NCBI GenBank assembly: GCA_028289965.1
Contig: JAQGKS010000228.1
Span: 1 to 32,560, forward strand
DNA: 32,560 nucleotides
Direction of reading: 5' to 3'
Source: Sphingomonas bacterium
Lineage (GTDB): Bacteria; Pseudomonadota; Alphaproteobacteria; Sphingomonadales; Sphingomonadaceae
Made by a program: the position numbers and the translations under genes. The notes below the pieces were generated by a model. That model saw only the letters and a list, made by a program, of their open reading frames with translations. It was not told the origin of the DNA and did no database searches. Of the stretch, positions 11,745-32,560 are shown one piece after another. Positions within the stretch are counted from its first letter, which is position 1. Each line of letters opens with the position of its first letter.

Positions 11745-11753
11745 ACCTTCGAA

Positions 11754-11774
11754 GGCATAGATCAAATCTATGCC
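11754..11774. promoter_or_regulatory. 21-bp perfect inverted repeat, candidate LysR operator
   Basis: GGCATAGAT-CAA-ATCTATGCC is a perfect 9-bp dyad and contains a T-N11-A core typical of LysR boxes. It lies 9 bp after the LysR stop and 217 bp before the beta-propeller gene. It could instead be a terminator hairpin, but no clear T-run follows. Confidence 0.5.
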
Positions 11775-11821
11775 CTGCATCTGATTTATCCTTCTAGCGC
11801 GATGGCCTTCCGGGCGGGCAA

Positions 11822-11834
11822 TCGAAGCTATGCC
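11822..11834. promoter_or_regulatory. Second half-site related to the LysR palindrome
   Basis: TCGAAGCTATGCC matches the right part of the palindrome (TCAAATCTATGCC, 11762-11774) at 11 of 13 positions and lies 60 bp further on, in the same orientation. Paired recognition and activation sites are usual for LysR regulators, but their spacing is normally shorter. Confidence 0.35.
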
Positions 11835-11990
11835 GTTGACACCAGCCCCCTCCGCCGACCGGATTGCACGAAGCTGGCGTTGGCATGTCGTGCGAGAGGC
11901 TGCGTTTGCGCTCTTCGCTGCCCGCGCGCTTGCGGTGGGCGGACGGGGTAGCCTGACTCCGCTCGAAGCCAGGAAGGAAGGACTGTCGAG

Positions 11991-12935: not shown

Positions 12936-12948
12936 GGGCAGGCACCGC

Positions 12949-13554
12949 TCAGGCGGCACAGGCCTGCCTCGCCCGCCGCAGGCCTGCCATCGCGATCGCC
13001 TCCGACAGGTCGGCGAAGGAAGGCAGCTGGCCGGCCGCGACGAGATCCTCGAGATCCTCGCTACTGCCGACCGCGTGCTTGGCAGCGACCACGCCGTCCG
13101 GCCGCAGCAGGACGGCCACCGGCGTGTCGCTTGCCTCGAAGGTGTCATGTGCAAGCCGGCTGCGCGCATAGATGGCGCCGCTGCCGACCTCGGCAGCCAT
13201 GCGGGGATCGAACTCGTCCGCTCCCACGAAGACGAGCTCGAGCCGCCGCCGCGCGGCGATGCCGCGCGCCGGTTCGACCAGCGACAAGGATTGTTCGGTG
13301 GCCGCAGCCACGAAGATCAGCAGCATGCCACGCGATCCCGGCTGCGGCGCTCCGAGCAGCAGCGGCCGATCGTCCGCGCCAAGCGCGATCAGCAGCGGAA
13401 CAGGCGCGCCGACGATCGCGTGCCGCTGCATCGGCGAATGTTCGAGTGAGGACATGTCGCGCTGCAGGGCGCGAACCTGACGCATCAGGGCAGCCACGGC
13501 GATCAACAGCAATGCGGCGATCGTCCAGAGCAGGAATGTTGACGCGATGAGCAT
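12949..13554 (-). CDS. MauD-like membrane-anchored thioredoxin-fold protein lacking CxxC
   Basis: The 201-residue protein begins with one membrane helix (about residues 2-24, LIASTFLLWTIAALLLIAVAALM), followed by RQVRALQRDM. A thioredoxin-like domain follows (GSRGMLLIFVAAATEQ, RLELVFVGADEF, DTPVAVLLRPDGVVAAK). The layout matches MauD, the accessory protein of methylamine dehydrogenase maturation. In MauD the strand after the first beta sheet carries a CxxC; here the equivalent place reads AAATEQ, so the redox pair is missing. The only Cys in the domain is near the C-terminus. The ATG at 13554 begins right at the membrane helix, as in MauD; an upstream TTG would add 11 residues. No MauE-like or amine dehydrogenase gene is seen nearby. 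It is convergent with the propeller gene, 13 bp apart. Confidence 0.65.
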   Translation of the reverse strand: MLIASTFLLWTIAALLLIAVAALMRQVRALQRDMSSLEHSPMQRHAIVGAPVPLLIALGADDRPLLLGAPQPGSRGMLLIFVAAATEQSLSLVEPARGIAARRRLELVFVGADEFDPRMAAEVGSGAIYARSRLAHDTFEASDTPVAVLLRPDGVVAAKHAVGSSEDLEDLVAAGQLPSFADLSEAIAMAGLRRARQACAA

Positions 13555-13587
13555 GGGAAGGCGCTCCGGACGGTGAAATCCCCGCAA

Positions 13588-13604
13588 GTGTCACGGCGTG
13601 TCAC
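13588..13604. promoter_or_regulatory. Tandem GTGTCAC repeats, 10 bp apart
   Basis: GTGTCAC occurs at 13588-13594 and 13598-13604, one helical turn apart, 34 bp upstream of the MauD-like start and in the shared upstream region of the permease-kinase. This spacing suits side-by-side binding of a response regulator or other dimer. Evidence is pattern only. Confidence 0.3.
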
Positions 13605-13632
13605 CCGGACGTCGGGGTTCCACCATGCGATG

Positions 13633-13649
13633 TTTGACGTAGCCGGAAC
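13633..13649. promoter_or_regulatory. Copy A of the shared motif GTTTGACGTAGCCGG
   Basis: GTTTGACGTAGCCGGAA lies between the divergent MauD-like and permease-kinase genes. The same 15 bp, with the AA displaced by one extra G, occurs at 22481-22498 upstream of the TonB receptor. It is a candidate target of the response regulator encoded downstream; function is inferred from position only. Confidence 0.4.
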
Positions 13650-13926
13650 GACGAGGTCAAAGCCGTGGGAGCAGGGCGCGTTTGAAAGCCGGACCCTGCG
13701 CCCATCCCTGCGTGCAGATGGAACAGCCTTGTTGCCGAAAAACACTAGGCCGTGATGCTGCAATGCAGCATAAGTGGCTTGAGAGCGCCGCGTGCGCCGA
13801 TCCTGCTGGAGCCGCCGACCTGCAACATCGCCGCCCCGTCTTTCGTGCAATGCCGGCCCGATGCTTGAGCGGGACGGTTCGGCTCGGCACGGGCGCGGCC
13901 AAGTCGCTCGGCAGGCGAGCTGCCCG

Positions 13927-16900
13927 ATGAAAGCGGTTCAGCGCATTGTTGCCGATGAACGGCCGGACGGCTGGCTGCCTGGCCTCCGCAGGTTGGAAGA
14001 CGATGCCCTGCGGCAGGTCGCGCCATCCGCGCGGCGCTGGTCGATCCCGACGGTCGGCGGCACGGCGTTTGGGGCGGCCAGCTTCCTCGCCTTCGAGGCG
14101 ATCGGGGCGACGCTGACAATCCGCTACGGCTTCGCCAGCACGGCCGCCGCGACAGCCGTGGCGATGCTGACGATGTTCGCGATCGGGCTTCCGATCGCAT
14201 TCCATGCGGCCCGGGCGGGGCTGACCAGCGATCTGCTCACCCGCGGCGCGGGCTTCGGCTATCTCGGCGCCACGATCCCGTCCCTGATCCGGGCCAGCTT
14301 CACGCTCGTGCTGTTCGCGATTGACGCGAGCATTCTGTCGGGCGCGCTCAACCTGCTGGTGGGCATGCCGTTGTGGGCCGCGCACCTGCTGAGCAGCCTG
14401 ATCGTGATCCCGGCCGCGATCTATGGGATGGCGGCGCTGACGCGCGTGCAGATTGCGACGCAGCCGATATGGCTGGCGCTTCAGATCGCGCCGATCCTTT
14501 ATCTGCTGCTGTCCCCGCACGCGCTGCAAGGTGGGTCGGATGGTGCCGCGGGCGCGGGCAGCGGCGGCGTCGCGCTACTGCCGTTCGGGCTAGCGATGTC
14601 GGTGCTGTTGTCGCTGCTTCCGCAGATCGCGAGCCAGGCGGACACGCTCCGCTTCCTGCCGGCGCCGACCCAGGGGCGGAGATGGCGCTGGTGGGCCGCG
14701 CTGATCGTCGGCGGGCCCGGATGGGTCTTCGCCGGCGGGGTCAAGCTGATGCTTGGATCGGCACTGGCTCTGTTCGCGATCAAGCAAGGCCTCGACGCCA
14801 ACGATCCGGCGGCGATGTTCCACGGCGTCTACCGCGAGATGGTGCCCTCGCCGGCCGTGGCGCTCGCGCTTACCGGCATCCTCATCTTCGTTTGCCAGCT
14901 CCGGGCCAATGCCGCCAACGCCTATTCCGGCTCGATAGCATGGTCGAACGTCTTCTCGCGCCTGACGCACGCGCATCCCGGGCGCGGGGTATGGCTGCTG
15001 GCCAATGTGGCGCTGGCCTTCGTGCTGATGAATGTGGGCACGTTGCGTGCCATCGAGGGGGCGCTCGTTGCCCATGCGAGTTTCGCCGCCGCGTGGATTG
15101 GCGCGCTGGCGGCACACCTGTGCGTGTCGCGGCCGCTGGGCCTCGCGCCTGCCGAGATCGAGTATAAGCGGGCGCATCTCTTCGACATCAATCCGGTTGG
15201 CGTCGGCGCGATGCTGATCTCGCTGCTGGTGTCGCTGCCGGCGCTGGCAGGGGCGCTCGGGCCGGTAGCGGCGGCGTTTGCGCCGGTGATCGGCCTTGCC
15301 GTCGCGTTCGTGGCCGCCCCTGCCATCGCGCTCGCCACGCGGAGCGCCTTCTACGTCGCGCGCACCTCCACCCTCCCAGCGGGCGCCACGCTGACCTGCA
15401 GCGGTTGCGGCCTGGCCTATGCGCGCGGCGACATGGCGTCCTGCCCCGCGCACGATGCACCGATCTGCACCTTGTGCTGCACGCTGGAGGCGCGGTGCCA
15501 CGACCTGTGCAAACCCGGGGGCCGCATCGCGGATCAGGCGACCCGGCTGGTGGCAGCGACCATGCCGTTCGCCGTCCTGCGGTCGCTGCCGCGCGCGGTC
15601 GGCCAGTACGCGATCCTGTTCACCCTGCTTGTCGGCGCGGCTGGCGCCATCCTCCACCTGATCTACCTCCATTATGCCGGCGGGCAGCCCGGGGCGGTTC
15701 GCGACGTGATCGGAACAACCCTTTGGATCGTGTTCACGATCTTCGCGCTGCTGAGCGCGCTCGCTGCCTGGCTGATCGTGCTCGCGCACCAGAGACGTCG
15801 CACGGCCGATCGCGAATCCGCGGCGCAGACGGCGCTCCTGCTGGAGGAGATAGAGGCGCACACTCGCACCGACGCCGCGCTCCAGAAGGCCAAGGAGGCG
15901 GCCGAGGCGGCCAGCGCCGCCAAGAGCCGCTACCTCGCCGGCGTCAGCCATGAGATCCGGTCGCCGCTGAACGCGATCTACGGCTATGCCCAGCTGCTCG
16001 AGCGCGACGGATCGATCCCGCCGCAGGAAGCGGCGCGGGTGATCCGCCGTTCGTCCGAGCACCTCACCAACCTTGTCGACGGGCTTCTCGACATCTCGCG
16101 GATCGAAAGCGGCGTTTTGAAGCTCAGCCGCGACGTGGTGCCGTTTCCCGCCTTGCTCGAGCAGCTGGTCGACATGTTCCGGATGCAGGCAGAGGCAAAG
16201 GGGATCGAGCTTCGCTACACCACCAGCGGCCGGATACCCGCCTTCGTCCGCACCGACGAGAAGCGCCTGCGCCAAATACTGATCAACCTGCTGTCGAACG
16301 CGATCAAATATACCCGCGAGGGCCACGCTGCACTGCATGTGCGCTACCGCAGCCAGATCGCGGAGATCGCGGTTTCCGACAGCGGCATCGGCATCCGGCC
16401 CGAAGACATGGAGCGGATCTTCGAACCCTTCGATCGCGGCAGCATGACGGAGGCAAAGGTCCAGCCGGGCACCGGCCTTGGCCTTGCGATCACCCGCGTG
16501 CTCACGCGCATCATGGGCGGCGAGGTGGAGGCGGAGAGCCGGCTGGGCGAGGGCAGCCGCTTCGTGGTGCGGCTGATGCTGGCGGAGCCCGCGCAGGCAC
16601 CGCCCGACACCGCGCGGCTGCGGCAGATTTCGGGCTATGAGGGCGCGCGTCGCACGGTCCTGCTGGTGGACGACGATCCCGCGCAATTGACGGTGCTGCA
16701 GGGATTGCTCCGCCCCTTGGGCCTAACGGTCTTCTGCGCGTCGAACGGGGACGAGGGGCTGGCGCTCGCCGCCCGCTGTCCCCCCGACATCGCGCTGCTC
16801 GACATCCAGATGCCGGGGATGTCGGGCTGGGAGCTCGCCGCTGGGCTGCGGGCGGCGCATGGCCCGGCGCTGCGGATCGTGATGGTGTCGGCCAATGCGC

Positions 16901-17268
16901 ATGAATTCGCCGCCGGCGGCGACGGGCGCAGCGCGCATGATGCCTTCGTGATGAAGCCGGTCGAGCTCGAGATGCTGCTGGACGTGCTGGCGGTGCAGCT
17001 GAATCTCGCCTGGATCACCGGCGGCGTGACGCCGCCGGCGGAAGAGGCCGCGCCGGTGGACCAGCCCATCGCCGGCGTCGGCCCCTACCTCGCCGAGCTC
17101 AAGCAGCTCGGCAAGATCGGCCATATCCGCGGCATTCGCGCCAAGCTCGACGAGCTCGAACGCGAGCTTCCGTCCAGCCGCCCGCTCGTGATCCGGCTGC
17201 GGGCGCGGGTGAAGGCGTTCGATCTCAAATCCTATCTCAAGATGCTGGAGACCCAGGTGGATGGCTAG
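13927..17268 (+). CDS. Hybrid histidine kinase fused to an NCS1-type permease domain
   Basis: The 1113-residue protein joins a transporter to a signalling chain. Residues about 20-475 are an NCS1-family nucleobase/hydantoin symporter-like domain with about 12 membrane helices; its start (LEDDALRQVAPSARRWS, then GGTAFGAASFLAFEAIGA) is typical of NCS1. A Cys-rich segment at about 491-528 (CSGCG, CPAH, CTLCC, CHDLC) could bind metal. Two further membrane helices, a coiled linker and a HisKA domain follow, with phospho-acceptor His675 in SHEIRSPLN; then the HATPase domain (NLLSNAIKYT, SDSGIGI, GTGLGLAI) and a receiver with Asp959 (LLDIQMPGMSG). It probably senses, and may transport, a nitrogen-rich compound and phosphorylates the regulator encoded next. 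The ATG at 13927 begins just before NCS1 homology; the frame extends further upstream without support. The stop overlaps the next gene by 8 bp. Confidence 0.88.
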   Translation: MKAVQRIVADERPDGWLPGLRRLEDDALRQVAPSARRWSIPTVGGTAFGAASFLAFEAIGATLTIRYGFASTAAATAVAMLTMFAIGLPIAFHAARAGLTSDLLTRGAGFGYLGATIPSLIRASFTLVLFAIDASILSGALNLLVGMPLWAAHLLSSLIVIPAAIYGMAALTRVQIATQPIWLALQIAPILYLLLSPHALQGGSDGAAGAGSGGVALLPFGLAMSVLLSLLPQIASQADTLRFLPAPTQGRRWRWWAALIVGGPGWVFAGGVKLMLGSALALFAIKQGLDANDPAAMFHGVYREMVPSPAVALALTGILIFVCQLRANAANAYSGSIAWSNVFSRLTHAHPGRGVWLLANVALAFVLMNVGTLRAIEGALVAHASFAAAWIGALAAHLCVSRPLGLAPAEIEYKRAHLFDINPVGVGAMLISLLVSLPALAGALGPVAAAFAPVIGLAVAFVAAPAIALATRSAFYVARTSTLPAGATLTCSGCGLAYARGDMASCPAHDAPICTLCCTLEARCHDLCKPGGRIADQATRLVAATMPFAVLRSLPRAVGQYAILFTLLVGAAGAILHLIYLHYAGGQPGAVRDVIGTTLWIVFTIFALLSALAAWLIVLAHQRRRTADRESAAQTALLLEEIEAHTRTDAALQKAKEAAEAASAAKSRYLAGVSHEIRSPLNAIYGYAQLLERDGSIPPQEAARVIRRSSEHLTNLVDGLLDISRIESGVLKLSRDVVPFPALLEQLVDMFRMQAEAKGIELRYTTSGRIPAFVRTDEKRLRQILINLLSNAIKYTREGHAALHVRYRSQIAEIAVSDSGIGIRPEDMERIFEPFDRGSMTEAKVQPGTGLGLAITRVLTRIMGGEVEAESRLGEGSRFVVRLMLAEPAQAPPDTARLRQISGYEGARRTVLLVDDDPAQLTVLQGLLRPLGLTVFCASNGDEGLALAARCPPDIALLDIQMPGMSGWELAAGLRAAHGPALRIVMVSANAHEFAAGGDGRSAHDAFVMKPVELEMLLDVLAVQLNLAWITGGVTPPAEEAAPVDQPIAGVGPYLAELKQLGKIGHIRGIRAKLDELERELPSSRPLVIRLRARVKAFDLKSYLKMLETQVDG

Positions 17269-18181
17269 TGACCCGTCGCGTACCCTGCTCGTGGTTGACG
17301 ACACGCCCGAATCGCTGAGCTTCCTCACCGATGTTTTGGAGCGTGCCGGCCATACCGTGCTCATCGCCAATGACGGCGAAGCGGCATTGGAGCTGCTCGA
17401 CCATATCATTCCCGATCTGATCCTCATGGATGCCATGATGCCCGGCATCGACGGGTTCGAGACGACCCGCCGGCTGAAAGGCGACAGTCGCTTCGCGGCG
17501 GTGCCGGTTATCTTCATGACCGGGCTGACGGAAACCGAGCACGTCGTCGAAGGGCTGCAGGCGGGCGGCGTGGACTATGTCCACAAGCCGGTGGTGATTG
17601 ACGAGCTGCTCGCGCGGATCCGCGTCCACCTGAGCAATGCGCGGGTGATGCAGGGCAGCCAGATCGCGCTCGACGGCAGCGGCCGATCCGTGTTGGCGCT
17701 CACCGTCGACGGCGGGATCGCCTGGACGACGCCGCGCGCCGCAGAGGCGCTTGCGGAGCTTTTTCCGGCCTGGAGCGCTGCTTCCGGCCTGCCGCCCGAG
17801 CCGCTGGTGCAGCCGCTGCGGCGGATGCAGGCGAGCGCGGCGGCGGACGTGCCCGCGACGCGGCTGGAGCTGGGCAGCGCCCGGCTGGAGGTCGCGCTGA
17901 TCGGCCGCAGCGGCACCGAAGAATGGCTGTTCCGGATCAACCATTCCAGCGAGGAAGCGGATGAGCGCGCGCTCGCCCGACGCCACGGACTGACGCTGCG
18001 CGAGGCCGAGGTGCTGCTGTGGATCAGCCGCGGCAAGCCCAATCGCGAGATCAGCGAAATCCTGGGCATATCCCCGCGGACCGTGAACAAGCATCTGGAG
18101 CAGGTGTTCGAGAAGATGGGAGTCGAAAATCGCGCGTCGGCGGCTGCGAGCGCGGTGCGCACGCTCGCCTCGGGATCATAG
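17261..18181 (+). CDS. LuxR-type response regulator partnered with the permease-kinase
   Basis: The 306-residue protein has an N-terminal receiver (acidic pair D13-D14, phospho-acceptor D57 in LILMDAMMPG, T87, K109 in HKPV), a middle region of no known family (about 130-235), and a C-terminal LuxR/NarL helix-turn-helix (LTLREAEVLLWISRGKPNREISEILGISPRTVNKHLEQVFEKMGV). Its ATG lies inside the last codons of the kinase gene, so the two are translationally coupled and form a cognate pair. The middle region resembles that of other regulators with an extra segment after the receiver. Likely targets are promoters in this cluster; the shared GTTTGACGTAGCCGG sites are candidates. Confidence 0.93.
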   Translation: MASDPSRTLLVVDDTPESLSFLTDVLERAGHTVLIANDGEAALELLDHIIPDLILMDAMMPGIDGFETTRRLKGDSRFAAVPVIFMTGLTETEHVVEGLQAGGVDYVHKPVVIDELLARIRVHLSNARVMQGSQIALDGSGRSVLALTVDGGIAWTTPRAAEALAELFPAWSAASGLPPEPLVQPLRRMQASAAADVPATRLELGSARLEVALIGRSGTEEWLFRINHSSEEADERALARRHGLTLREAEVLLWISRGKPNREISEILGISPRTVNKHLEQVFEKMGVENRASAAASAVRTLASGS

Positions 18182-19858: not shown

Positions 19859-22333
19859 CTAGAAGCGGAACCGGCCCTCCACGCCGAGGGTCCGCGGATT
19901 CAGGACAGCGCGGTTATAGTAGCGCACCGCGATCCCATCATTGACCCCGATCCGCGACCGATCGTTGCCGATCGACGTGACCGCATATTTGTCGAAGATG
20001 TTGTTCGCCCAAAGGCTGAGGTCGAAGCGTTCAGTGCTGTAGGTGACCGACGCACGGTGCGTCATATAGTCTGGAATCAACTCGCCGAACGTCCGGGTGC
20101 CGCCCAGGCGGGAGACGATGCTGCCGCGGTAGACGGCGGTCCAGTTGGTGATCAGTTCGCCCGATGCCAGCGCATAGGTGTAGGTGGTGCCAAGGCTGGC
20201 CGCATGCCTGGCCGAACCGGGCAGGCGATCGCCCGACAAAGCGTCCAGCTGCAGGAACTTCGGCCGCACATCATAGTCTCCGGGCACTCGGCGCACCGTG
20301 ATGAGACCCGGGACGGCGGAGGTGAGCTCCGCATCGGTGTAGGAATAGGTGCCATTGATCACCAGCTCCGGCACCGGCCGCGCGTTGACCGAGGCCTCGA
20401 AGCCCTTCGAACGCGCGGTGCCGCCGTTCACCGTGATGCCGGTTGCACCGTAGAGAGTGGCGGAGTCCACCTGGATGCCGTTCCACTTGATATGGAAGAT
20501 ATTGGCATTGATGGTGAGCTTGCGGTCGATCAGCTGGGCGCGCACGCCGAGCTCGATGTTCTTCGTCTTGTCAGGACCATATTGCTGCTCGTTCGGCAGA
20601 GCGCAGGCATTCTGCTGGCCAAGCGGGAGCGGATCGGGGCAGGGCGCGACACGGTTCGGACCGCCCAGGCGATAACCCTTGCTGTAGGTGGCATAAACCA
20701 TGAAGTCGCGCGACATCTTGTAGGAGGTGTTGAGCTTCCACACGAACCCGTCCTGCCCGCCCTTGCCGCCAGCCGGCCTGATCGACGGATCGAACGGGCT
20801 GATCGGATCCCCGAGCAGCGGCAGCACAAGCGCGCCCTGGATCTCGGAGGTGTAGTCGAAGTAGCGAAGGCCGCCGGTGACCTGGAAGGCATCCGTCACG
20901 TTGAAGGTCGCTTCGCCGAATACCGCTTTCTCGACGATCTTGCTCTTGATGAAGCTGACATATTCCAGATCGTCGGGATTTCCGGTAACGCCGAAGACGT
21001 TGGAGAGCCCCGGCGTGCTTTCGAAGTAGAACTGATCGCGCTTCTGTTCGTTGTAGAAGCCGCCCAGCACCCAGTTGAGCGGCCCGCCGTGACGTGAGAC
21101 GAGGCGGACTTCCTGGTTGACCTGAGTGCGCTTGTCGCGCGTCTCGGAAAAGCCGGAGAAGGACGGGAAAGCCTCATAGTCATAGTCGAGGTCGAGCAGA
21201 AGGTCCGTCACGTCGAACTGACTGCGGCTGAGCACGTCCGTGTAGGCCGTCGTGGAAACCAGATCGGCGAAGTCCCACAGGTTCGCGTTGAGCTCGAAGC
21301 TCACGAGGTGGGCGCGGCGCTTCGCGGGCTCGAGATAGCGCGACGCGATCTCGTAGCGGCCGGTGCCGAGCACGCCCGCGCTGTTCGATTGACGCCCGTC
21401 GGTCTTGGTCTGCTGGTAGCCGTAGGTGACGATCGCCTTCACGTCGGGATTGAGCTGCAGCAGCAACTGGTTGCGCGACGTGATCGTCTTTTCGAAGTTG
21501 ATGTCCTTCTGCCTGCGCAGGTTCGCGTCGTAAGCGGCATCGGTGAAGTTGCCGTCAGCACCGCCAGGCTGCGGGATCGACACGCCCGGCTGCTGGATCA
21601 GAAGCGGGGAGTCGATGAAGCCAGGATCGAAATAATAGCCGAAGGTGCTGCGCAGGGCGATGTGATCGGTAACCAGTGGAATATTGATGACGCCGTCGAC
21701 CTGGGTTCCGACGTCATTGCTGTGATCCTTGATGTAGACGCGGCCATGCACTTCGGCCTGGTAATCGTCGGCATCGGGGCGCTTGGGAATGTAGCGGATG
21801 GCGCCGGCGAGCGTACCGAGGCCATAGAGCGTGCCTTGCGGTCCGAGCAGGGTTTCCACGCGAGCGATGTCGAGCAGCTTGAAATCGTAGTAAAGCGGGA
21901 CTTCGCCCAGATAGATGCCGAGCGCATCGTCATAGCCGGCACCCAGATCGTCGGAGTCGCTGGCGTTGAGGCCGCGCAGGACCACCGTCCCGGTCGAGCG
22001 GGGACCGGTGTCGGAAACGGTAATGCCCGGCGTGAAATCCGCGATGTCCCGGATGTCGTCGACACGCTGCTGGGCGAGCATATCGCCGGACATCGCGCTG
22101 ATGTTGATCGGCACGTCCTGCAGGCTCGCCGCGCGGCGGGTCGCGGTCACGACGATCTCGCCGCTGTCGGCACCGGCCGCCGCCGCGGCGCTGGTCGGAG
22201 CCTGCGCCGTTTCGATCGGCGCTGCCGGGGCCGTTGCGTCCGCCGGCTGCGCCAGTGCGGGTGCGGTCGCGAGCGCGCCGGTCAGGAAAGTTGCGGAGAG
22301 AAGAGTAAGTCGTCGTCTGCAGGTGCTGTGCAA
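19859..22333 (-). CDS. TonB-dependent outer-membrane receptor
   Basis: With the TTG start at 22333 the product is 824 residues: a signal peptide (Arg-rich start, then LTLLSATFLTGALATAPALAQ), an Ala/Pro-rich linker, and a TonB box-like EIVVTATRR. A plug domain follows (DVPINISAMSGDMLAQQ, then VVLRGLNASDSDD and RVETLLGPQGTLYG), then a 22-strand-type barrel ending in the aromatic VEGRFRF. It imports a bulky or scarce compound across the outer membrane using TonB energy. The TTG is chosen because GGGGGA lies 7-12 bp upstream and the signal peptide begins there; the frame's only earlier ATG would add 47 residues of unlikely sequence, and no other Met precedes the plug. It is downstream of two MBL-fold genes on the same strand, 338 bp away, with its own upstream region. 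Confidence 0.93.
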   Translation of the reverse strand: MHSTCRRRLTLLSATFLTGALATAPALAQPADATAPAAPIETAQAPTSAAAAAGADSGEIVVTATRRAASLQDVPINISAMSGDMLAQQRVDDIRDIADFTPGITVSDTGPRSTGTVVLRGLNASDSDDLGAGYDDALGIYLGEVPLYYDFKLLDIARVETLLGPQGTLYGLGTLAGAIRYIPKRPDADDYQAEVHGRVYIKDHSNDVGTQVDGVINIPLVTDHIALRSTFGYYFDPGFIDSPLLIQQPGVSIPQPGGADGNFTDAAYDANLRRQKDINFEKTITSRNQLLLQLNPDVKAIVTYGYQQTKTDGRQSNSAGVLGTGRYEIASRYLEPAKRRAHLVSFELNANLWDFADLVSTTAYTDVLSRSQFDVTDLLLDLDYDYEAFPSFSGFSETRDKRTQVNQEVRLVSRHGGPLNWVLGGFYNEQKRDQFYFESTPGLSNVFGVTGNPDDLEYVSFIKSKIVEKAVFGEATFNVTDAFQVTGGLRYFDYTSEIQGALVLPLLGDPISPFDPSIRPAGGKGGQDGFVWKLNTSYKMSRDFMVYATYSKGYRLGGPNRVAPCPDPLPLGQQNACALPNEQQYGPDKTKNIELGVRAQLIDRKLTINANIFHIKWNGIQVDSATLYGATGITVNGGTARSKGFEASVNARPVPELVINGTYSYTDAELTSAVPGLITVRRVPGDYDVRPKFLQLDALSGDRLPGSARHAASLGTTYTYALASGELITNWTAVYRGSIVSRLGGTRTFGELIPDYMTHRASVTYSTERFDLSLWANNIFDKYAVTSIGNDRSRIGVNDGIAVRYYNRAVLNPRTLGVEGRFRF

Positions 22334-22480
22334 CTGATGTCCCCCAAAGCGCGTTCGTTTGTCTGTGGCTTCACGAGCATCTCTCCAGCGGGGGCAGTGC
22401 CGTTTTTCGCTGCCTCGGGATGGTCCCCTTTTTCCCGCTATCGTGACGCTATGGAGCCCGGCGGCGAGAACCAATGGGGC

Positions 22481-22498
22481 GTTTGACGTAGCCGGGAA
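22481..22498. promoter_or_regulatory. Copy B of the shared motif GTTTGACGTAGCCGG
   Basis: GTTTGACGTAGCCGGGAA lies 148 bp upstream of the TonB receptor start. It repeats 13633-13649 with one inserted G. A CCAATGG just before it loosely matches CCATGCG before copy A. Candidate operator; no direct evidence. Confidence 0.4.
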
Positions 22499-22514
22499 TC
22501 TTATGCATCCAACT

Positions 22515-22530
22515 GAGAATAAACGAGAAT
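22515..22530. promoter_or_regulatory. Tandem GAGAAT repeats, 10 bp apart
   Basis: GAGAAT occurs at 22515-22520 and 22525-22530, exactly one helical turn apart, upstream of the TonB receptor. This is a spacing often used by response regulators. Pattern only. Confidence 0.25.
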
Positions 22531-22669: not shown

Positions 22670-22671
22670 GC

Positions 22672-23673: not shown

Positions 23674-23690
23674 GGGAAATCTCCGCGGGC

Positions 23691-24779: not shown

Positions 24780-24870
24780 GATATTCCTTGCTATTCGCCT
24801 GACCAACACGGGTGCGCCGGCCGCGCGAGAGGCGCACGCCGGCGGTTCGGCGGCAAGGTGGTCAAATGGC

Positions 24871-24898
24871 GTATTACACTTTCGCCCCCCGGTAATAT
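24871..24898. promoter_or_regulatory. Candidate NikR-type operator between the divergent operons
   Basis: GTATTAC (24871-24877) and GTAATAT (24892-24898) form a dyad with a 14-bp gap, one mismatch in seven. Published NikR operators have this form (GTATGA-N16-TCATAC in enterics; GTGTTAC-N13/14-GTAACAC in Geobacter). It lies 33 bp before the ABC operon and 92 bp before the MBL operon. The right half TAATAT and the complement of the left half TAATAC also look like -10 boxes, so binding would block transcription both ways. The likely binder is the NikR-like protein encoded in the ABC operon. Confidence 0.55.
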
Positions 24899-24931: not shown

Positions 24932-26020
24932 ATGCTCGCATGGATTAGCAGACTTCGTGTGACGACTGCCATGGCGACGGCGCTCGCTCTGGCCTCCTGC
25001 AGCGGCGGCGACGCCCCGGACGGGGCGCAGGCGCGAACCGAATTCTCGATCGGCTGGTCGATCTATGCCGGCTGGATGCCGTGGCCCTACGCCCAGCAGA
25101 GCGGCATCGTGAAGAAATGGGCCGACAAATACGGCCTCAAGATAAACATCGTGCAGATCAACGACTACGTCGAATCGGTCAACCAGTATACCGCCGGCAA
25201 GCTTGACGGTGTCACCGTCGCGAGCATGGATGCGCTCACTATCCCGGCCGCGGGCGGCAAGGATACGAGCGCGATTATCGTCGGTGATTATTCGAACGGC
25301 AACGACGGGGTGGTGCTGAAAGGCGGAGGCGGCCTGGCCGCGATCAAGGGCCGCACCGTCTACCTCGCCGAATTGTCCGTCTCGCATTATCTGCTGGCGC
25401 GCGGACTTGAGACTGCGAAGCTCTCGCTGACCGACGTGAAGACGGTCAACACCTCGGATGCCGACATCGTCGGCGCCTTCGCCAGCCCGTCGGCGACCGC
25501 AGCAGTGGCGTGGAACCCGCAACTGTCCGAGATCGCGACGGCGCCGAGTGCCAAGCTGGTGTTCAGCTCCGCCCAAATCCCGGGCGAGATCCTGGATCTG
25601 CTGGCGGTCGATACCGCAACGCTCGCCGCCAATCCCAATCTGGGCAAGGCGCTGGCCGGCATCTGGTACGAGACGATGGACGTCATGCTGCGCCAGGATG
25701 CCGAGGGCGCGAAGGCGCGCGCGGCGATGGCGAAGCTTGCCGGCACCACGCCGGAGACCTTCGAGGCGCAGCTGAAGACGACCTTCCTCTACGGAAAGCC
25801 GGCCGCCGCGGTGGCCGCGACGAAAGCCCCGGCACTGGTCGCCGCGATGATGCGGATGCGCGACTTCAGCTTCTCCAAGGGCCTGTTCGGGCCGGGCGCG
25901 CCTTCGGCAGACGCAGTCGGCATGGCGTTTCCAGGCGGTAAGACGCTCGGCAATGCGCAGAACGTGAAGCTGCGCTTCGACAATACCTACATGCAGCTTG
26001 CTGCGGACGGTAAGCTCTGA
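24932..26020 (+). CDS. ABC transporter substrate-binding lipoprotein, urea-carboxylase-associated type
   Basis: The 362-residue protein has a lipoprotein signal with lipobox LASC, Cys at residue 23, then a NMT1/TauA-like periplasmic binding domain (FSIGWSIYAGWMPWPYAQQSGIVKKWADKYGL, DALTIPAAGG, YLAELSVSHYLLARGL). It matches the group of binding proteins found in urea-carboxylase gene regions. It should capture a small nitrogen compound in the periplasm and hand it to the permease; guanidine or a relative is favoured by context. The ATG has AGGAAG 7 bp upstream. It is the first gene of a seven-gene, mostly overlapping operon and lies behind the candidate NikR-type operator. Confidence 0.9.
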   Translation: MLAWISRLRVTTAMATALALASCSGGDAPDGAQARTEFSIGWSIYAGWMPWPYAQQSGIVKKWADKYGLKINIVQINDYVESVNQYTAGKLDGVTVASMDALTIPAAGGKDTSAIIVGDYSNGNDGVVLKGGGGLAAIKGRTVYLAELSVSHYLLARGLETAKLSLTDVKTVNTSDADIVGAFASPSATAAVAWNPQLSEIATAPSAKLVFSSAQIPGEILDLLAVDTATLAANPNLGKALAGIWYETMDVMLRQDAEGAKARAAMAKLAGTTPETFEAQLKTTFLYGKPAAAVAATKAPALVAAMMRMRDFSFSKGLFGPGAPSADAVGMAFPGGKTLGNAQNVKLRFDNTYMQLAADGKL

Positions 26021-26030
26021 GTGCGCTGGC

Positions 26031-26846
26031 ATGAGGCTCGTCAATCGGCGCCCGCGCGGGGGATCGAGCCTGGCGCTCGGCGCGCTCCCGCTCCTCGCAC
26101 TCCTCGCCTTCTACCTCTTCGCCTCCGCCGCGCGGCATGCGGAAAATCCGGCGGACAAGGTCCTGCCGACCCCCGGCATGATGGTGTCCGCGATGAGCAA
26201 TCTGCTCACCCAGCCGGATCCGCTGTCGGGTCGCCTGATCTTTTGGGCGGATACGGCAGCCAGCCTGCAGCGACTGGGGCTCGGTCTCGGCATCTCGGCC
26301 GTTGCGGCGCTTCTGATCGGCCTCGCGCTGGGCGTGCTGCCGCTGCTGCGCTCGAGCTTCGGGCCGACCGTGACCACGATCGCGGTGGTGCCGCCAATCG
26401 CGCTGCTGCCGGTGTTGTTCATCGTCTTCGGGCTTGGCGAGGCAGCCAAGGTCGCGCTGATCGTGATCGGAGTGGCGCCTTTCATGGTTCGCGACTTGGC
26501 GATCCACGTTGCGGCGATCCCCATCGAGCAGATGATCAAAGCGCAGACCCTCGGCGCGTCGAGCTGGCAGCTGACGCTGCGCCTGGCGCTGCCGCAGGCG
26601 ATGCCGCGGCTGCTCGCGTCCCTGCGGCTCTCCCTGGGGCCAGCCTGGGTCTACCTGATCTCGGCCGAGGCGATCGCATCGGACATCGGGCTCGGCTACC
26701 GCATCTTCCTGGTCCGTCGCTACCTGTCGATGGACATCATCCTGCCCTATGTGGCTTGGGTCTCGCTGCTCGCGATCGCATGCGATCTGGCGCTGCTGTG
26801 GCTGAGCCGGCGCGCCTTTGCCTGGGCGCACGAGGGCGGACGATGA
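26031..26846 (+). CDS. ABC transporter permease
   Basis: The 271-residue integral membrane protein has about six helices and the cytoplasmic EAA-like loop that docks the ATPase (AQTLGASSWQLTLRLALPQAMPRLLASLR). It is of the SsuC/TauC type that usually works as a homodimer. The ATG at 26031 starts 10 bp after the binding-protein stop; an earlier in-frame start would overlap that gene. Its stop overlaps the ATPase start (ATGA). Confidence 0.93.
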   Translation: MRLVNRRPRGGSSLALGALPLLALLAFYLFASAARHAENPADKVLPTPGMMVSAMSNLLTQPDPLSGRLIFWADTAASLQRLGLGLGISAVAALLIGLALGVLPLLRSSFGPTVTTIAVVPPIALLPVLFIVFGLGEAAKVALIVIGVAPFMVRDLAIHVAAIPIEQMIKAQTLGASSWQLTLRLALPQAMPRLLASLRLSLGPAWVYLISAEAIASDIGLGYRIFLVRRYLSMDIILPYVAWVSLLAIACDLALLWLSRRAFAWAHEGGR

Positions 26847-27628
26847 GCGCGGTGCTCTCCTTCCGCGGCGTCTCGGTCGAATATGGCGACAAGCTCGTGC
26901 TCGAGCGGGTCGACTTGGATGTGGCCGAAGGGTCGTTCGTGTCGATCCTTGGTCCGTCGGGAGCGGGCAAGAGCACCTTCCTGCGGCTGGTGCTCGGTCA
27001 GGAGGCGCCGACGCGGGGACGGATACTGCTCGACGACAAGCCCCTTGTCGCCGAGTGCGGACCCGATCGCGGTGTGGTGTTCCAGCGTTATTCGGTGTTC
27101 CCGCACCTGACCGCACTGCGCAATGTGATGTTCGGTCTGGAATGCAGGGCGGCGCCGTTCACGGCGCGACTATTCGGCACCCGCTGCCGCGAAGCACGCG
27201 AGCAAGCGGCCGCGATGCTGGAGGCGGTCGGCCTAGGCAGCAGCCTGGACGTCTATCCGGCGCAGATGTCGGGCGGCATGCAGCAGCGGCTCGCCATCGC
27301 GCAGGCCTTGATCATGCGCCCGCGCATCCTGCTGCTTGATGAGCCGTTCGGCGCGCTCGATCCGGGCATCCGCAAGGATATGCACGGGCTAATCACCCGG
27401 CTGTGGCGCGAGCAGAACCTCACCGTGCTGATGGTGACCCATGACCTGAAGGAGGCTTTCCTGCTCGGCACCCGGGTGCTGGTGTTCGACAAGCGCCGCC
27501 ACGATCCCCACGCGCCCCACCGCTTCGGCGCAACCGCCGTTTACGATCTGGCGCTGAACAAGGATGCGCCGGTGACCATCCCCGATGCGCTTGCCAAGCA
27601 TATGGGCGTGGAAGGAGTCGGGGCATGA
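26843..27628 (+). CDS. ABC transporter ATP-binding protein
   Basis: The 261-residue ATPase has Walker A GPSGAGKST, Q-loop VVFQRYSVFP, signature MSGGMQQRLAIAQAL, Walker B ILLLDEPFGALD and switch His in MVTHDLKEA. It is of the SsuB/TauB subfamily and ends with an extra stretch (about 210-261, KRRHDPHAPHRFGATAVYDL) seen in urea-carboxylase-linked members. The start ATG overlaps the permease stop by 4 bp with GAGGGCGGA upstream; a longer open frame upstream only reads through the permease gene. It powers the uptake system formed with the two preceding genes. Confidence 0.95.
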   Translation: MSAVLSFRGVSVEYGDKLVLERVDLDVAEGSFVSILGPSGAGKSTFLRLVLGQEAPTRGRILLDDKPLVAECGPDRGVVFQRYSVFPHLTALRNVMFGLECRAAPFTARLFGTRCREAREQAAAMLEAVGLGSSLDVYPAQMSGGMQQRLAIAQALIMRPRILLLDEPFGALDPGIRKDMHGLITRLWREQNLTVLMVTHDLKEAFLLGTRVLVFDKRRHDPHAPHRFGATAVYDLALNKDAPVTIPDALAKHMGVEGVGA

Positions 27629-28104: not shown

Positions 28105-28925
28105 CCATGACGCTACACGATCCCCGCGCCGCCCAGGCGCATGCCCGGGCCCAGGCCGGCACCATCACAGAGGCGATGCCGCTGCTGCCACCGATCGCCG
28201 ACGACCTGCCGGCGGGTGTCACCCGCGACGACCTTGTCTGGGAGGAGACGATCGCCGGCGGCGGCTATGCCTCGCGACAGCTGGCGCGCGGCAGCCGGCT
28301 GCGTCTGATCGACCTAAAGGGCGACGCCTGCGCCTCGCTCAACATCTTCAACGCCGCCATGCCCACGGAGCGGCTGAACGTCGCCGACACGGTCAAGGTG
28401 CAGTGGAACGGCTATCTTGGCGCGGGCAAGCTGCTGCTGTCCGACATGGGCCGGGTGCTGATGAGCATCGTGGAGGATGAGGCGGGCACGCACGATGCCT
28501 TCTGCGGCCCCTCCACCGCCGCCTCCAACGCGCGGCGCTATGGCGAGGGCGGCAATTGGAGCGGCTATCCCAGCGCGCGCGACCGGCTGCTGCTCGGCGC
28601 CTCCAAGCATGGCCTCGGCCGCAAGGACGTCCACCCCTGCGTCAACCTGTTCAAGGGCATGCGGATCGAGGCCGACGGCGCGGTGACGCCCGAGGTAGGT
28701 CCGTTCGCGCCCGGCCGCACTGTGCTGCTGCGGGCCGAGATGGACGTGGTGGTGATCATCGCCAACTGCCCCCACGTGCTCGATCCGCGCACCGCCTGGA
28801 GCGTTGCGCCGCTCCGCGCGACTGCCTGGCGGGGCCCGCCGACGCCGCCTGAGGATGCGATCCGCACCGCGATGCCGGAAGGTCTGCGCGCCTTCCAGAA
28901 CGTCGAAGACCTCTATCGCCGCTAA
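28101..28925 (+). CDS. DUF1989 protein, urea-carboxylase-associated; probable carboxyguanidine deiminase subunit
   Basis: The 274-residue protein belongs to the DUF1989 family of urea-carboxylase-associated proteins. Typical stretches are RLIDLKGDACASLNIFNAAMPTERLNVADT, GKLLLSDMGRVLMSI, HDAFCGPST and HPCVNLFKGMRIEADG, with a conserved Cys/His pattern (C near DAFCG, HPC, NCPHVLDP) that may bind metal. Proteins of this type were shown elsewhere to act as a two-part carboxyguanidine deiminase (CgdA/CgdB), turning carboxyguanidine into allophanate and ammonia. It is slightly longer than its partner, as in known pairs. The start ATG overlaps the regulator stop by 4 bp. Which of the two subunit names applies I cannot decide. 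Confidence 0.88.
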   Translation: MTMTLHDPRAAQAHARAQAGTITEAMPLLPPIADDLPAGVTRDDLVWEETIAGGGYASRQLARGSRLRLIDLKGDACASLNIFNAAMPTERLNVADTVKVQWNGYLGAGKLLLSDMGRVLMSIVEDEAGTHDAFCGPSTAASNARRYGEGGNWSGYPSARDRLLLGASKHGLGRKDVHPCVNLFKGMRIEADGAVTPEVGPFAPGRTVLLRAEMDVVVIIANCPHVLDPRTAWSVAPLRATAWRGPPTPPEDAIRTAMPEGLRAFQNVEDLYRR

Positions 28926-28933
28926 GGACCACG

Positions 28934-29569
28934 ATGACCGACGATGCTGCTCTTGCCGGCCTGCCCGGCACGTTGATCCACGACGAAACCGTGCCCGCGC
29001 GCGCACGCTGGATGCACGAGGTGAAGGCGGGACAGACGCTCCGCGTCGTCGACCTCGAAGGCAACCAAGCGGTGGATTTCCTGCTTTACTCCGCCGCCGA
29101 CGATGCCGAGCGCTATAGCGCGCAGGACACGATCGCGGCCCAGGCCAACATCTTCCTGCGCGAAGGATCGGTGCTGCTGTCGAATGAGGGCAGGCCGATG
29201 ATGACCATCGCCGCCACCAGCGTCGATTACCACGACACGATCGGCGGCGCCTGTTCGTGCGAGTCCAATACGCTGCGCTACGGCCATCACACAAAGGCCC
29301 AGCATGCCTGCGTCGACAATTTCCTGGACGCCAACCTGCGCGCTGGCCGCGGCAAGCGCGACATCGTGTCGAACATCAACTTCTTCATGAACGTGCCGGT
29401 CGAGGCGGACGGCGCGCTGGGCATCGTCGACGGCATCTCCGCGCCGGGCCTGATGGTCGACCTGCATGCCGAGATGGACGTCGTCGTGCTCGTGTCCAAC
29501 TGCCCCCAGATCAACAATCCCTGCAACGGCTTCAATCCGACGCCGGTGCGCATGATCGTGGTGGCATGA
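28934..29569 (+). CDS. DUF1989 protein, second urea-carboxylase-associated subunit; probable carboxyguanidine deiminase subunit
   Basis: The 211-residue protein is the partner DUF1989 member: LRVVDLEGNQAVDFLLYSA, RYSAQDTIAAQANIFLREGS, then the motif-rich HDTIGGACSCESNTLRYGHHTKAQHACVDNF with clustered Cys and His, and the ending LVSNCPQINNPCNGFNPTPVR. Together with the preceding protein it should form the deiminase that follows guanidine carboxylation. It starts 8 bp after its partner's stop and its own stop overlaps the carboxylase start. The shared order transporter, two DUF1989 genes, carboxylase is the conserved arrangement of this pathway. Confidence 0.9.
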   Translation: MTDDAALAGLPGTLIHDETVPARARWMHEVKAGQTLRVVDLEGNQAVDFLLYSAADDAERYSAQDTIAAQANIFLREGSVLLSNEGRPMMTIAATSVDYHDTIGGACSCESNTLRYGHHTKAQHACVDNFLDANLRAGRGKRDIVSNINFFMNVPVEADGALGIVDGISAPGLMVDLHAEMDVVVLVSNCPQINNPCNGFNPTPVRMIVVA

Positions 29570-32560
29570 TGTTCGGGACGGTCCTGGTCGCGAACCGCGG
29601 CGTCATCGCTCGCCGCATCATCCGCACGCTCCGGCAGATGGGGGTCCGCTCCGTCGCGGTCTATTCCGACGCCGACGTCGCCTCGCCGCATGTCGCCGAA
29701 GCCGACGTTGCGGTCCGGATCGGCCCGGCGGCGCCGGCGGACAGCTACCTTAACGTGCCAGCGATCCTGGCGGCTGCACGCGAGACCGGGGCGGAGGCGA
29801 TCCATCCAGGATATGGCTTCCTGTCCGAAAATGCGGAATTCGCCGAGGCGTGCGAGGCGGCCGGCATTGCGTTCATCGGCCCCGCGCCGGACGCGCTCCG
29901 CGCCTTCGGCCTGAAGCATAGCGCCCGCGAACTGGCACGTGCCAATGGCGTGCCGCTCGCACCCGGAACGGAGCTGCTGTCCGACGCCGAGGCGGCGATC
30001 TCCGCGGCCGCGGAGATCGGCTTCCCTGTGATGCTGAAGGCGACCGCCGGCGGTGGCGGCATCGGCATGCGGGTGTGCGCGGACGCCAGCGCGGTGGGGC
30101 AGGGCTTCGAGGCGGTTGCGCGGCTGGGTGCCGGCAATTTTGCCAATTCGGGCGTGTTCCTGGAGCGCTACATCGCGCGCGCACGCCATATCGAGGTGCA
30201 GATCTTCGGCGACGGCAAGGGCCGCGTGATTGCGCTCGGCGAGCGTGACTGCTCGCTGCAGCGGCGCAACCAGAAGGTGGTCGAGGAGGCACCCGCCCCG
30301 AACCTGCCGGATGCGGTCCGCGCCGGCCTGATCGAAGCTGCGATCCGGCTGGGGGAGGCGGTCGCCTATCGCTCGGCGGGCACGGTCGAGTTCCTCTATG
30401 ATCCCGAGCGACGGGACTGGTATTTTCTGGAGGTCAACACGCGCCTGCAGGTCGAGCATGGCGTGACCGAGATGGTGACCGGAGTTGACCTGGTCGAATG
30501 GATGGTGCGCGGCGCAGCCGGCGATTACCGCTTCATGGACATGGCTCCGTTCGTGCCGAACGGCTGGTCGATGCAGGCGCGGCTCTATGCCGAGGATCCC
30601 GCCGCCGATTTCCGCCCGGCATCGGGCACGCTGATCGAGGCGAGCTTCCCCGACGATGTCCGCGTCGAGACGACGGTCGAGTCCGGATCGACCGTCAGCA
30701 CGCATTATGATCCGATGCTCGCCAAGCTTATCGTCTACGCGCCGGATCGCAAGGCGGCGGCATCGGCGCTGCAGGCGGCGCTGGAGGCGACCCGCCTCTC
30801 CGGGATAGAGACCAACCTGCGCTGGCTGCGCGATGTCGTGCGCAATGATGAATTCAAGGCAGGGGAGGTGTCGACCAAGCTGCTGGAGCGGATCGAGCAT
30901 CATCCGCGCAGCATCAGCGTCAAGCAGGGTGGCGCCGCGACGAGCGTCCAGAACTATCCCGGCCGCATCGGCCTGTGGGCGATCGGCGTGCCGCCGTCCG
31001 GCCCGATGGACGCGCGCTCCTTCCGGCTCGGCAATCGCCTGCTCGGCAATCCGCAGCATGTCGCAGGGCTAGAGGTGACCGCGACCGGGCCGACCCTGCT
31101 GTTCAACGCCGCGACCCGGATCTGCCTGACGGGTGCCGATTTCGGCGCCACGATCGACGGCCGCCCGGTGCCGCGCAACGAGCCGCTGACGGTGAACGCC
31201 GGTCAGACGCTGGCGCTCGGCCGCGTCACGGGCGGGGGGCTGCGCGGCTATATCCTGTTCGCGGGCGGGCTCGACATTCCCGACTATCTCGGCAGCAGCA
31301 GCACCTTCGAGCTGGGGGAGTTTGGCGGGCATGCCGGAAGGCGCCTTCTGACGGGCGATACGCTGCACCTCTCGCCAGTCACGCCCGCGGTGATCCCGAG
31401 CCGCCGCCGCGTCGACCAGCCCGCGCTGGGACCGGACTGGACGATCCGCGTCCTCTATGGCCCACACGGCGCGCCCGACTTCTTCACCCCCGACGACGTG
31501 TCGACGATCCTCGAGGCTGAGTGGCGCGTCCACTATAACAGCAACCGCACCGGTGTCCGGCTGGTGGGCCCGAAGCCGCATTGGGCGCGCAAAGATGGTG
31601 GCGAGGCGGGGCTCCATCCGTCGAACATCCACGACAATCCTTATGCCATCGGCGCGTTGGACTTCACTGGCGACATGCCGATCATCCTGGGGCCGGACGG
31701 GCCGTCGCTGGGTGGCTTCGTCTGCCCCTTCACGATCATCATGGCCGACCTCTGGATGGCGGGGCAGCTCGCGCCAGGCGACCGCATCCGCTTCGTGCTC
31801 GCCGACCTTTCCGAGGCGGAGAGCGCAGTTGCGGAAGAAACCGGCTGGATCGACGGCAGCGAAGCACCGTCGCCGCCGCCGCCCGTCCGCACGCTCGCGA
31901 TCGCCGATGCGTCACCCATCCTGGCCGATCTGCCGGCCAGCGGCGGCCGTCCGCGCGTGCTCTACCGGCAGCAGGGCGATGACAACGTGCTGGTCGAATA
32001 TGGCCCGATCCGGCTCGACCTCGAGCTCAGGCTGCGGGTCCATGCCGCGACGGTGGAGCTGGCACGGTTGGCGCTGCCCGGCATCATCGACGTGGTGCCC
32101 GGGATCCGATCCTTCCAGGTCCATTTCGACGACCGGATCCGCCGTTCCGCGCTGCTCGATGCGCTGCTGGCGATTGAGGAACGGCTTGGCGGGCTCGACG
32201 ATTTCGTGACGCCGTCGCGGATCGTGCACCTTCCGCTCAGCTGGAACGATCCCGCCATCCACGAAACGATCGACCGCTATATGGCGGTCGTGCGCGACGA
32301 TGCGCCGTGGTGCCCGGACAATATCGAGTTCATTCGCCGCGTGAACGGGCTCGCGACGATCGAGGAGGTCCGCAGGATCGTGTTCGACGCCAGCTACCTC
32401 GTCTACGGGCTGGGCGACGTCTATCTCGGCGCGCCGGTGGCGACCCCGATCGACCCGCGGCACCGGCTCGTCACCACCAAATATAATCCCGCGCGGACCT
32501 GGACCCCGCCAAACGTGGTCGGGATCGGCGGTGCCTATATGTGCATCTACGGGATGGAGG
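29566..32560 (+). CDS. Urea/guanidine carboxylase, biotin-dependent, cut by the right edge
   Basis: The first 998 residues are present: a biotin carboxylase domain (about 1-450; VLVANRGVIARRIIRTLR, ATP-grasp KATAGGGGIGMRV, catalytic EVNTRLQVEHGVTE), then the urea-type carboxyltransferase domains AHS2/KipA-like (NYPGRIGLWAIGVPPSGPMD, HPSNIHDNPYAIGALDFTGDMP) and AHS1/KipI-like (VLYRQQGDDNVLVEYGP). The C-terminal biotin-carrying domain is beyond the edge. The enzyme carboxylates urea or guanidine with ATP and bicarbonate. The substrate-site residue D699 (GALDFTGD) is Asn in true urea carboxylases as I recall them, which favours guanidine. Start ATG 29566 overlaps the previous stop; ATG 29569 is also possible. 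Allophanate hydrolase is expected next. Confidence 0.95.
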   Translation, partial: MMFGTVLVANRGVIARRIIRTLRQMGVRSVAVYSDADVASPHVAEADVAVRIGPAAPADSYLNVPAILAAARETGAEAIHPGYGFLSENAEFAEACEAAGIAFIGPAPDALRAFGLKHSARELARANGVPLAPGTELLSDAEAAISAAAEIGFPVMLKATAGGGGIGMRVCADASAVGQGFEAVARLGAGNFANSGVFLERYIARARHIEVQIFGDGKGRVIALGERDCSLQRRNQKVVEEAPAPNLPDAVRAGLIEAAIRLGEAVAYRSAGTVEFLYDPERRDWYFLEVNTRLQVEHGVTEMVTGVDLVEWMVRGAAGDYRFMDMAPFVPNGWSMQARLYAEDPAADFRPASGTLIEASFPDDVRVETTVESGSTVSTHYDPMLAKLIVYAPDRKAAASALQAALEATRLSGIETNLRWLRDVVRNDEFKAGEVSTKLLERIEHHPRSISVKQGGAATSVQNYPGRIGLWAIGVPPSGPMDARSFRLGNRLLGNPQHVAGLEVTATGPTLLFNAATRICLTGADFGATIDGRPVPRNEPLTVNAGQTLALGRVTGGGLRGYILFAGGLDIPDYLGSSSTFELGEFGGHAGRRLLTGDTLHLSPVTPAVIPSRRRVDQPALGPDWTIRVLYGPHGAPDFFTPDDVSTILEAEWRVHYNSNRTGVRLVGPKPHWARKDGGEAGLHPSNIHDNPYAIGALDFTGDMPIILGPDGPSLGGFVCPFTIIMADLWMAGQLAPGDRIRFVLADLSEAESAVAEETGWIDGSEAPSPPPPVRTLAIADASPILADLPASGGRPRVLYRQQGDDNVLVEYGPIRLDLELRLRVHAATVELARLALPGIIDVVPGIRSFQVHFDDRIRRSALLDALLAIEERLGGLDDFVTPSRIVHLPLSWNDPAIHETIDRYMAVVRDDAPWCPDNIEFIRRVNGLATIEEVRRIVFDASYLVYGLGDVYLGAPVATPIDPRHRLVTTKYNPARTWTPPNVVGIGGAYMCIYGME

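Follow-up and report, generated by a model that had tools for sequence, protein, structure and literature searches.

What does a sensor kinase perceive when its receptor half carries the fold of a transporter? The question is posed by a single open reading frame (13927..17268, plus strand; 1113 amino acids) in the 32,560-nucleotide stretch of Sphingomonas bacterium DNA analysed here ('the window'; GCA_028289965.1, contig JAQGKS010000228.1, our C299), which is a complete contig of a 3.0-Mb, 301-contig genome that is 87% complete. Its product joins an NCS1-like membrane domain, a module with eight cysteines (Cys8) and a hybrid histidine kinase. We consider it reasonably likely (probability about 0.65) that the NCS1-Cys8 kinases, of which this is one, are two-component receptor kinases for small urea-type nitrogen compounds, i.e. 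urea and short amides; a reading carried by the fold and altered substrate site of the membrane domain, by the genes found beside the family, and by a palindrome that recurs upstream of them.

Architecture and distribution of the family

Working from the N-terminus onwards, we see a 12-helix NCS1-like domain (residues ~21-470; 13987..15336, plus strand, as are all parts of this gene), delineated by an AlphaFold model, structure matches and hhalign; then the Cys8 module (residues 491-528, C-x2-C-x11-C-x7-C-x2-CC-x5-C-x3-C; 15397..15510; alignment and models); then, in the AlphaFold model, two helices (556-584 and 589-644; 15592..15858), the second heading to the kinase dimerisation domain. Pfam places HisKA at residues 665-729 (15919..16113), HATPase_c at 776-885 (16252..16581) and a Response_reg receiver at 911-1020 (16657..16986), all far over their cut-offs; the protein belongs to the hybrid histidine kinases, and its fold relates it to NCS1 proteins, whose Na+-site features it lacks. 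This is the layout that the preliminary description of this DNA had read from the frame: membrane domain, Cys cluster with His at 491-528, helices, kinase and receiver. The cysteines are residues 491, 494, 506, 514, 517, 518, 524 and 528, accompanied by H509 and H525. An alternative upstream start exists (GTG at 13792), with ATG 13927 preferred because relatives begin at about the same place. Overlapping the kinase stop codon lies the gene for a putative cognate response regulator (17261..18181, plus strand; 306 amino acids), to which Pfam assigns a receiver and a LuxR/GerE helix-turn-helix.

The NCS1-Cys8-kinase architecture recurs across Pseudomonadota and is not a one-off of the window. When the first 600 residues were searched across the class, 23 of 289 genomes gave a match. 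Besides the window's own genome, these comprise 19 with clear relatives (40-53% identity) and three with weak matches (L029-L031; L numbers denote loci of relatives) that we left out as family members. A phylum-wide profile search matched 43 of 299 genomes, a few weakly, and a scan of species genomes confirmed at least 591 relatives, of which the best 80 were retained, tilting the sample to window-like sequences, Bradyrhizobium and Rhizobium; titles among these 80 name alpha-, beta- and gammaproteobacteria. All eight cysteines are invariant, in 20 of 20 and 81 of 81 aligned members and in 117 of 118 rows, the exception being L109, where the frame is broken and the alignment has a gap (a 204-residue frame, excluded from the tree below, whose cysteines are legible in the frame used for the 81-row alignment). 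The suspicion that close homologues might lack the cluster is therefore dispelled. Searches of the open-access literature found no description of the family among their top-ranked results. One further locus, L178, holds from ~7900 (plus strand) a frame limited to the tail of the Cys-rich stretch, the final helices and the kinase, with a regulator relative nearby; it is perhaps a frameshifted gene and, being without the transporter part, was excluded from the context count.

Membrane domain and cysteine module

Family libraries leave the N-terminal half unnamed (Pfam on the whole protein and on its first 645 residues; NCBIfam on 635 residues). The same Pfam approach that finds HisKA, HATPase_c and the receiver finds, even at E≤1, no match to the NCS1 model PF02133 among the 45 members scanned; nor does SSF (SLC5) match any of the 45, in a scan that also misses PF02133. 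Weak, scattered Pfam matches in other members (DUF6526 commonest, 12 of 45, best E 0.0031) were judged to be chance, and the family profile run against Protein Data Bank sequences returned just one RING finger (E 3.9). Structure, by contrast, is informative. In the AlphaFold model of residues 1-645 (predicted local distance difference test, pLDDT, 82; predicted TM-score, pTM, 0.85) helices 1 and 6 are broken as in LeuT-type transporters, and its top Foldseek ranks are Mhp1 and CodB. VIA-align gives CodB Z 35.1 (394 aligned, root-mean-square deviation 3.5) and Mhp1 Z 30.3, with the next fold at Z 22.8, the urea transporter DUR3 at Z 21.8 and SLC5-type chains at no more than 22.5 among the matches listed. 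An hhalign comparison of the family profile with four NCS1-like proteins (three of them found with PF02133) is colinear over residues 31-402 (97.7%, E 1.7e-12). At the level of the fold, as modelled, the receptor half is an NCS1-derived domain.

We mapped Mhp1 residues onto the family through the NCS1 profile-profile alignment and further comparison, counting over the 118 rows. Ser312/Thr313 of Mhp1, which we take to be Na+ ligands, become K326/I327 in 116 rows and R326/A327 in the window, with one gap (L109). Of Trp117 and Trp220, presumably the aromatic sandwich around the substrate, the first corresponds to residue 129 (F in 86 rows, L in 32) and the second to L230 (117 rows, one gap). Gln121 is replaced by E133 in the family, and Asn318 of transmembrane helix 8 is retained as N331. 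Numerous residues of the transporter core equal the cysteines in invariance, and those of the cavity are nearly invariant. With Na+ ligands and Trp sandwich replaced, we read the domain as a receptor rather than a symporter, symport of nucleobases or hydantoins by the family being unlikely on these sequences; the conservation of a polar cavity points to a smaller ligand. The earlier label of a nucleobase/hydantoin-type symporter thus survives as a fold and not as a function, the expected substrate-site residues being lost in part (the TM8 Asn is kept), and of the two readouts then envisaged, flux and occupancy, the replaced Na+ site and sandwich make occupancy the better reading.

A domain that still transports its ligand, with the kinase reading the flux, is nonetheless suggested by the complete 12-helix NCS1 fold and by CbrA, described as both kinase and histidine transporter (PMC7096432). 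It gains further from L177 (8449-9942, plus strand), a standalone NCS1-like relative of 497 amino acids, without Cys module or kinase, whose neighbours (a CN-hydrolase gene, a UrtA-like match at 27% and an AmiR/ANTAR regulator) suggest amide transport; since it too has R at the Na+-site position, Na+ independence alone does not exclude transport. Set against this are the family-wide disappearance of Na+ site and Trp sandwich and the dedicated UrtABC-type importers that 77 to 82 of 99 loci encode close to the kinase, and we think retained transport unlikely.

The Cys8 module, modelled alone (pLDDT 68, pTM 0.47), forms beta hairpins, with C491/C494 near the first of them and C514/C517 flanking the start of a short helix in a treble-clef-like arrangement. 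Its structural matches are non-significant (best Foldseek E 0.63; VIA-align Z no higher than 4.1), most rows being RING, ZZ, FYVE, LIM or similar zinc fingers. When the Cys segment alone was searched against 190 genomes, at least 12 were matched, every match listed lying within a 1130-1241-residue frame of an NCS1-Cys8 kinase; the segment, earlier noted as foreign to ordinary NCS1 transporters and PutP/CbrA-type sensors, is a fixed feature of this family. On these models the module probably binds zinc, with two sites as our best assignment (491/494/514/517 and 506/518/524/528), and a structural zinc finger is more likely than the redox input first imagined, which the finger-like matches do not favour. 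Could the cluster nevertheless be the signal input, as a redox or Fe-S/metal sensor on a membrane domain that is mere scaffold? Its invariance (81 of 81) and its restriction, among the matches listed, to these kinases would fit; the C-x2-C pairs, treble-clef arrangement and weak zinc-finger resemblance do not, nor do transporter-core residues that are often just as invariant, nor a gene context of nitrogen-compound catabolism, and we regard such a role as very improbable.

Gene neighbourhoods and an operator-like palindrome

That context was counted in 117 other loci (99 and 18 further; closely related genomes counted separately). Among the 99, a LuxR-type regulator follows the kinase in 98 (in L039 the contig ends first), and neighbours include UrtA-like proteins (82, mostly divergent from the kinase), UrtB (79), UrtC (77), FmdA (52), FmdB (49) and UreC (14); NCBIfam names representative neighbours UrtA, UrtB, UrtC, formamidase and aliphatic amidase. 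At least one gene for an amide/urea ABC transporter, formamidase, amidase, urease, urt component or urea carboxylase is present in 106 of the 117, which divide into an fmd type (formamidase and/or UrtA-like amide/urea binding protein; 70), urt and/or urease (32), urt plus carboxylase (3), amidase (1) and none (11). Upstream of the kinase, Pfam finds urease alpha, UreD, UreE and UreF in L036 and L037 (a metagenome-assembled genome, MAG; Sphingobium psychrophilum) and a CobW/UreG-type GTPase in L093 (a Phenylobacterium MAG). The urease assignment of L045 depends on a UreG 11 kb off. This locus (10468-15478; a Lysobacterales MAG) also has two arginase-family ureohydrolases downstream of its regulator and a TonB receptor divergent from the kinase.

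In a FastTree tree the three context types change at least nine times, and the window, on a long branch, groups at local support 97 with L036-L038, whose kinases lie behind urease operons. Output has also been exchanged with sensor module and neighbour genes retained: L175 (6999-9656) and L176 (7163-9847) carry the NCS1-Cys module on a receiver-less kinase (by Pfam and by printed sequence, respectively), with regulators of other types beside them and FmdA/FmdB within 7 kb. As to ligands, urea and short amides fit the relatives and guanidine, also proposed before, the window's own neighbourhood; nothing in the contexts examined points to the purines and hydantoins put forward with it.

A kinase that senses cytoplasmic nitrogen status, rather than a compound, with an inert membrane domain, is another possible reading: the SLC5 domain of CbrA is described as dispensable for signal perception (PMC9100948), and ammonia is reported to repress fmd as well (PMC10781810). 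Yet Pfam scans of the whole window protein and of the 45 members match no PAS or other cytoplasmic sensor domain, and an inert domain would sit poorly with nearly invariant cavity residues; we give this little credence.

A dyad count over 74 non-redundant kinase-upstream regions (below 80% identity) brought out the palindrome TACGTCA-NN-TGACGTA (ATACGTCAWWTGACGYAT), present as one such dyad in 31 of the 74 against 0.4 in mononucleotide shuffles; at two mismatches or fewer a site occurs in 31 of 73 kinase-upstream regions (shuffle mean 0.15). In a set of 75 non-redundant loci totalling 1.42 Mb there are 36 sites with 1/14 mismatches or fewer, every one of them in the 6.2% of sequence upstream of kinase or urea/amide genes. 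A partly independent check considers the 14 sites that are over 1 kb away from the kinase; 11 of these fall within the 3.6% of sequence upstream of FmdA, UrtA or UreD, and three elsewhere. Members of the window's clade often have one degenerate half, ATGGGGC(A/G)TTTGACGTA, and the exact TTGACGTA half is missing in 5 of 19 other clade loci (L034, L035, L040, L093 and L112) as well as in L114 and L115, which carry the full-palindrome type instead.

The window has two exact TGACGTA half-sites. One belongs to an operator-like site upstream of the kinase (ATGCGATGTTTGACGTAG; 13625..13642, plus strand) and the other to a site upstream of a TonB-dependent receptor (ATGGGGCGTTTGACGTAG; 22474..22491, plus strand), each with 4/18 mismatches to the family palindrome; the third-best site (24857..24874, plus strand; 5/18) lies 57 bp before the ATG of an ABC binding-protein gene. 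The receptor gene (19859..22474, minus strand; true start probably further inside) is a candidate regulon member, and L045 likewise has a site between the kinase and its divergent TonB receptor. The window's receptor may thus represent outer-membrane uptake tied to the sensor. Beyond the window's sites, the 3.0-Mb genome holds one match to the clade pattern with at most one mismatch, on contig C87, and one with two (reversed control, 1); the C87 site precedes a hydroxylase-like gene, a few kb from an allophanate hydrolase gene.

A putative guanidine-carboxylase operon and possible ligands of the window's kinase

Further along the window lies an operon, all on the plus strand, that encodes an ABC substrate-binding protein (24932..26020; TIGR03427, putative urea ABC), a TauC/NtrB-like permease (25998..26846; below the cut-offs of those models), an ATPase (26832..27628; start approximate, ABC_tran falling in the second half of the frame 26021-27628), UAAP1 (28233..28925; TIGR03425, start approximate), UAAP2 (28934..29569; TIGR03424) and a urea/guanidine carboxylase (29566..32560; TIGR02712) cut by the contig end. 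Contig C87 (L199, 10485-13012) overlaps the window's end by exactly 127 bp and holds the end of the carboxylase and the allophanate hydrolase. D699 of the carboxylase aligns with Asn1330 of yeast urea amidolyase (5i8i), which we take to be the residue meant by a published rule for these enzymes. By that rule Asp versus Asn in the active site separates guanidine from urea carboxylase (PMC12186494), so the window's enzyme reads as a guanidine carboxylase. A riboswitch search found none, the whole window at gathering thresholds giving two tRNAs only and 22400-27000 giving nothing at E≤1. Directly behind the regulator lies a gene for a TPR and sulfotransferase protein (18186-19772, plus strand), L045 also having a sulfotransferase match, and an IS4/5-family transposase (DUF4096, DDE; 612-1421, minus strand) sits near the contig start.

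Such an operon is not the family's standard neighbour, as was considered: a carboxylase at 45% identity or more is near just 3 of the 117 other loci (a 30% match to part of a protein in L058 was left out of the counts). Proximity to the kinase-regulator pair might then be chance, the more so as the operon starts 6.75 kb past the regulator, with the sulfotransferase and opposite-strand genes in between, and the site before its binding-protein gene is a degenerate one. Against coincidence, L130 has the window's order of kinase, regulator, NMT1 substrate-binding protein, UAAP1, UAAP2 and carboxylase with Asp; in L114 and L115 a carboxylase, here with Asn, is found 6 kb downstream; and C87, the contig on which the operon continues, holds the single additional clade-type site of the genome. 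An unrelated operon seems to us somewhat unlikely. That the window's kinase senses guanidine is, for its part, a tentative proposal that we consider unlikely.

Several observations weigh against a urea-type sensor with the palindrome as its operator. The palindrome counts include the upstream regions used to discover the motif; in only 52 of 119 rows does the best site show 2/14 mismatches or fewer, and the other 67, the window among them, do no better than shuffles (40 whole-locus shuffles gave best sites with 2, 3 and 4 mismatches in 1, 15 and 24 cases). The zero mismatches of the window's sites to the clade pattern follow by construction, since that pattern was built to accommodate these two sites. 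In the window's 87% complete genome nothing matches UrtA, FmdA or urease, and of the 11 loci without urea or amide genes four (L034, L084, L092 and L109) are truncated a short way upstream of the kinase, with seven (L035, L040, L106, L112, L124, L127 and L129) not truncated there. The window's cavity deviates from that of the family, D133, R326 and A327 being unique to it among the 118 rows and A330 shared with L192. Lastly, the SLC5 transporter domain of CbrA is reported as not essential for kinase activity, on which histidine had no effect (PMC7096432).

If the urea-type sensor reading is right, the NCS1-derived domain would have lost Na+ symport, and its former substrate cavity would accommodate a small amide-type ligand; this would be urea or a short amide for most relatives and, in the window's genome, either urea or guanidine. 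Binding would shift the transporter-like helices, and the Cys module (at best guess a two-site zinc finger after the transporter core) together with the helix pair would relay this change to the kinase, which, via its own receiver, would phosphorylate the adjacent LuxR-type regulator. The latter would bind the palindrome, or degenerate forms in which the TTTGACGTA half is intact, and turn on the genes by which the compound is taken up and degraded, along with its own operon.

By analogy, the family may work like CrbS/RpuS and Ks-Amt5. In CrbS, CbrA and RpuS a sodium-symporter-like domain is likewise joined to a kinase; CrbS and RpuS are hybrid kinases with a LuxR-family regulator, and the CrbR operator is described as an imperfect palindrome (PMC5715377, PMC9100948). 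Those kinases, however, have an SLC5 fold and accompany acetate, pyruvate or histidine genes; the window's family has an NCS1 fold, a Cys8 module, no PAS match in our scans and urea/amide genes. Ks-Amt5 is likewise a transporter reused as receptor on a kinase, reported to bind and not translocate ammonium; it differs in its Amt domain, is a single anammox protein in that paper, and a Cys module is not mentioned in its abstract (PMC5764959). As membrane domain and target genes differ, we place the family in neither group. With Mhp1 and CodB it shares the fold, the colinear profile match to NCS1-like proteins and the TM8 Asn, and it departs from them in its Cys module and kinase, its replaced Na+ ligands and Trp sandwich, and in being missed by PF02133. 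EupR/Csal869 was set aside as a match, its kinase having SSF and PAS domains in the published description (PMC2964678).

The urea/amide context of NCS1-Cys8 kinases is new here. Urea and formamide are reported to induce bacterial uptake and hydrolysis genes, and the part of that report available to us names no sensor kinase for the induction; for the fmdCABDEF formamide/urea system of Methylophilus, similar to the neighbours in our 70 fmd-type loci, the only regulator it mentions is a putative positive one encoded within the cluster (PMC10781810). A review of 2025 states that, transporters and enzymes aside, riboswitches are the only receptors known for guanidine, and leaves room for the discovery of signalling proteins (PMC12186494). 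It is conceivable, though speculative, that within a widespread class of urea-type sensors the cavity in the window's lineage (KINVTNAYAG changed to RANAANAYSG, and E133 to D) was adapted to guanidine, making the kinase a protein receptor that takes the place of the riboswitch. For urea and formamide induction, the NCS1-Cys8 family offers a concrete, widely distributed candidate sensor with a predicted operator; if this is true, NCS1 would join the transporter folds converted to receptors, with the Cys module as the coupling element.

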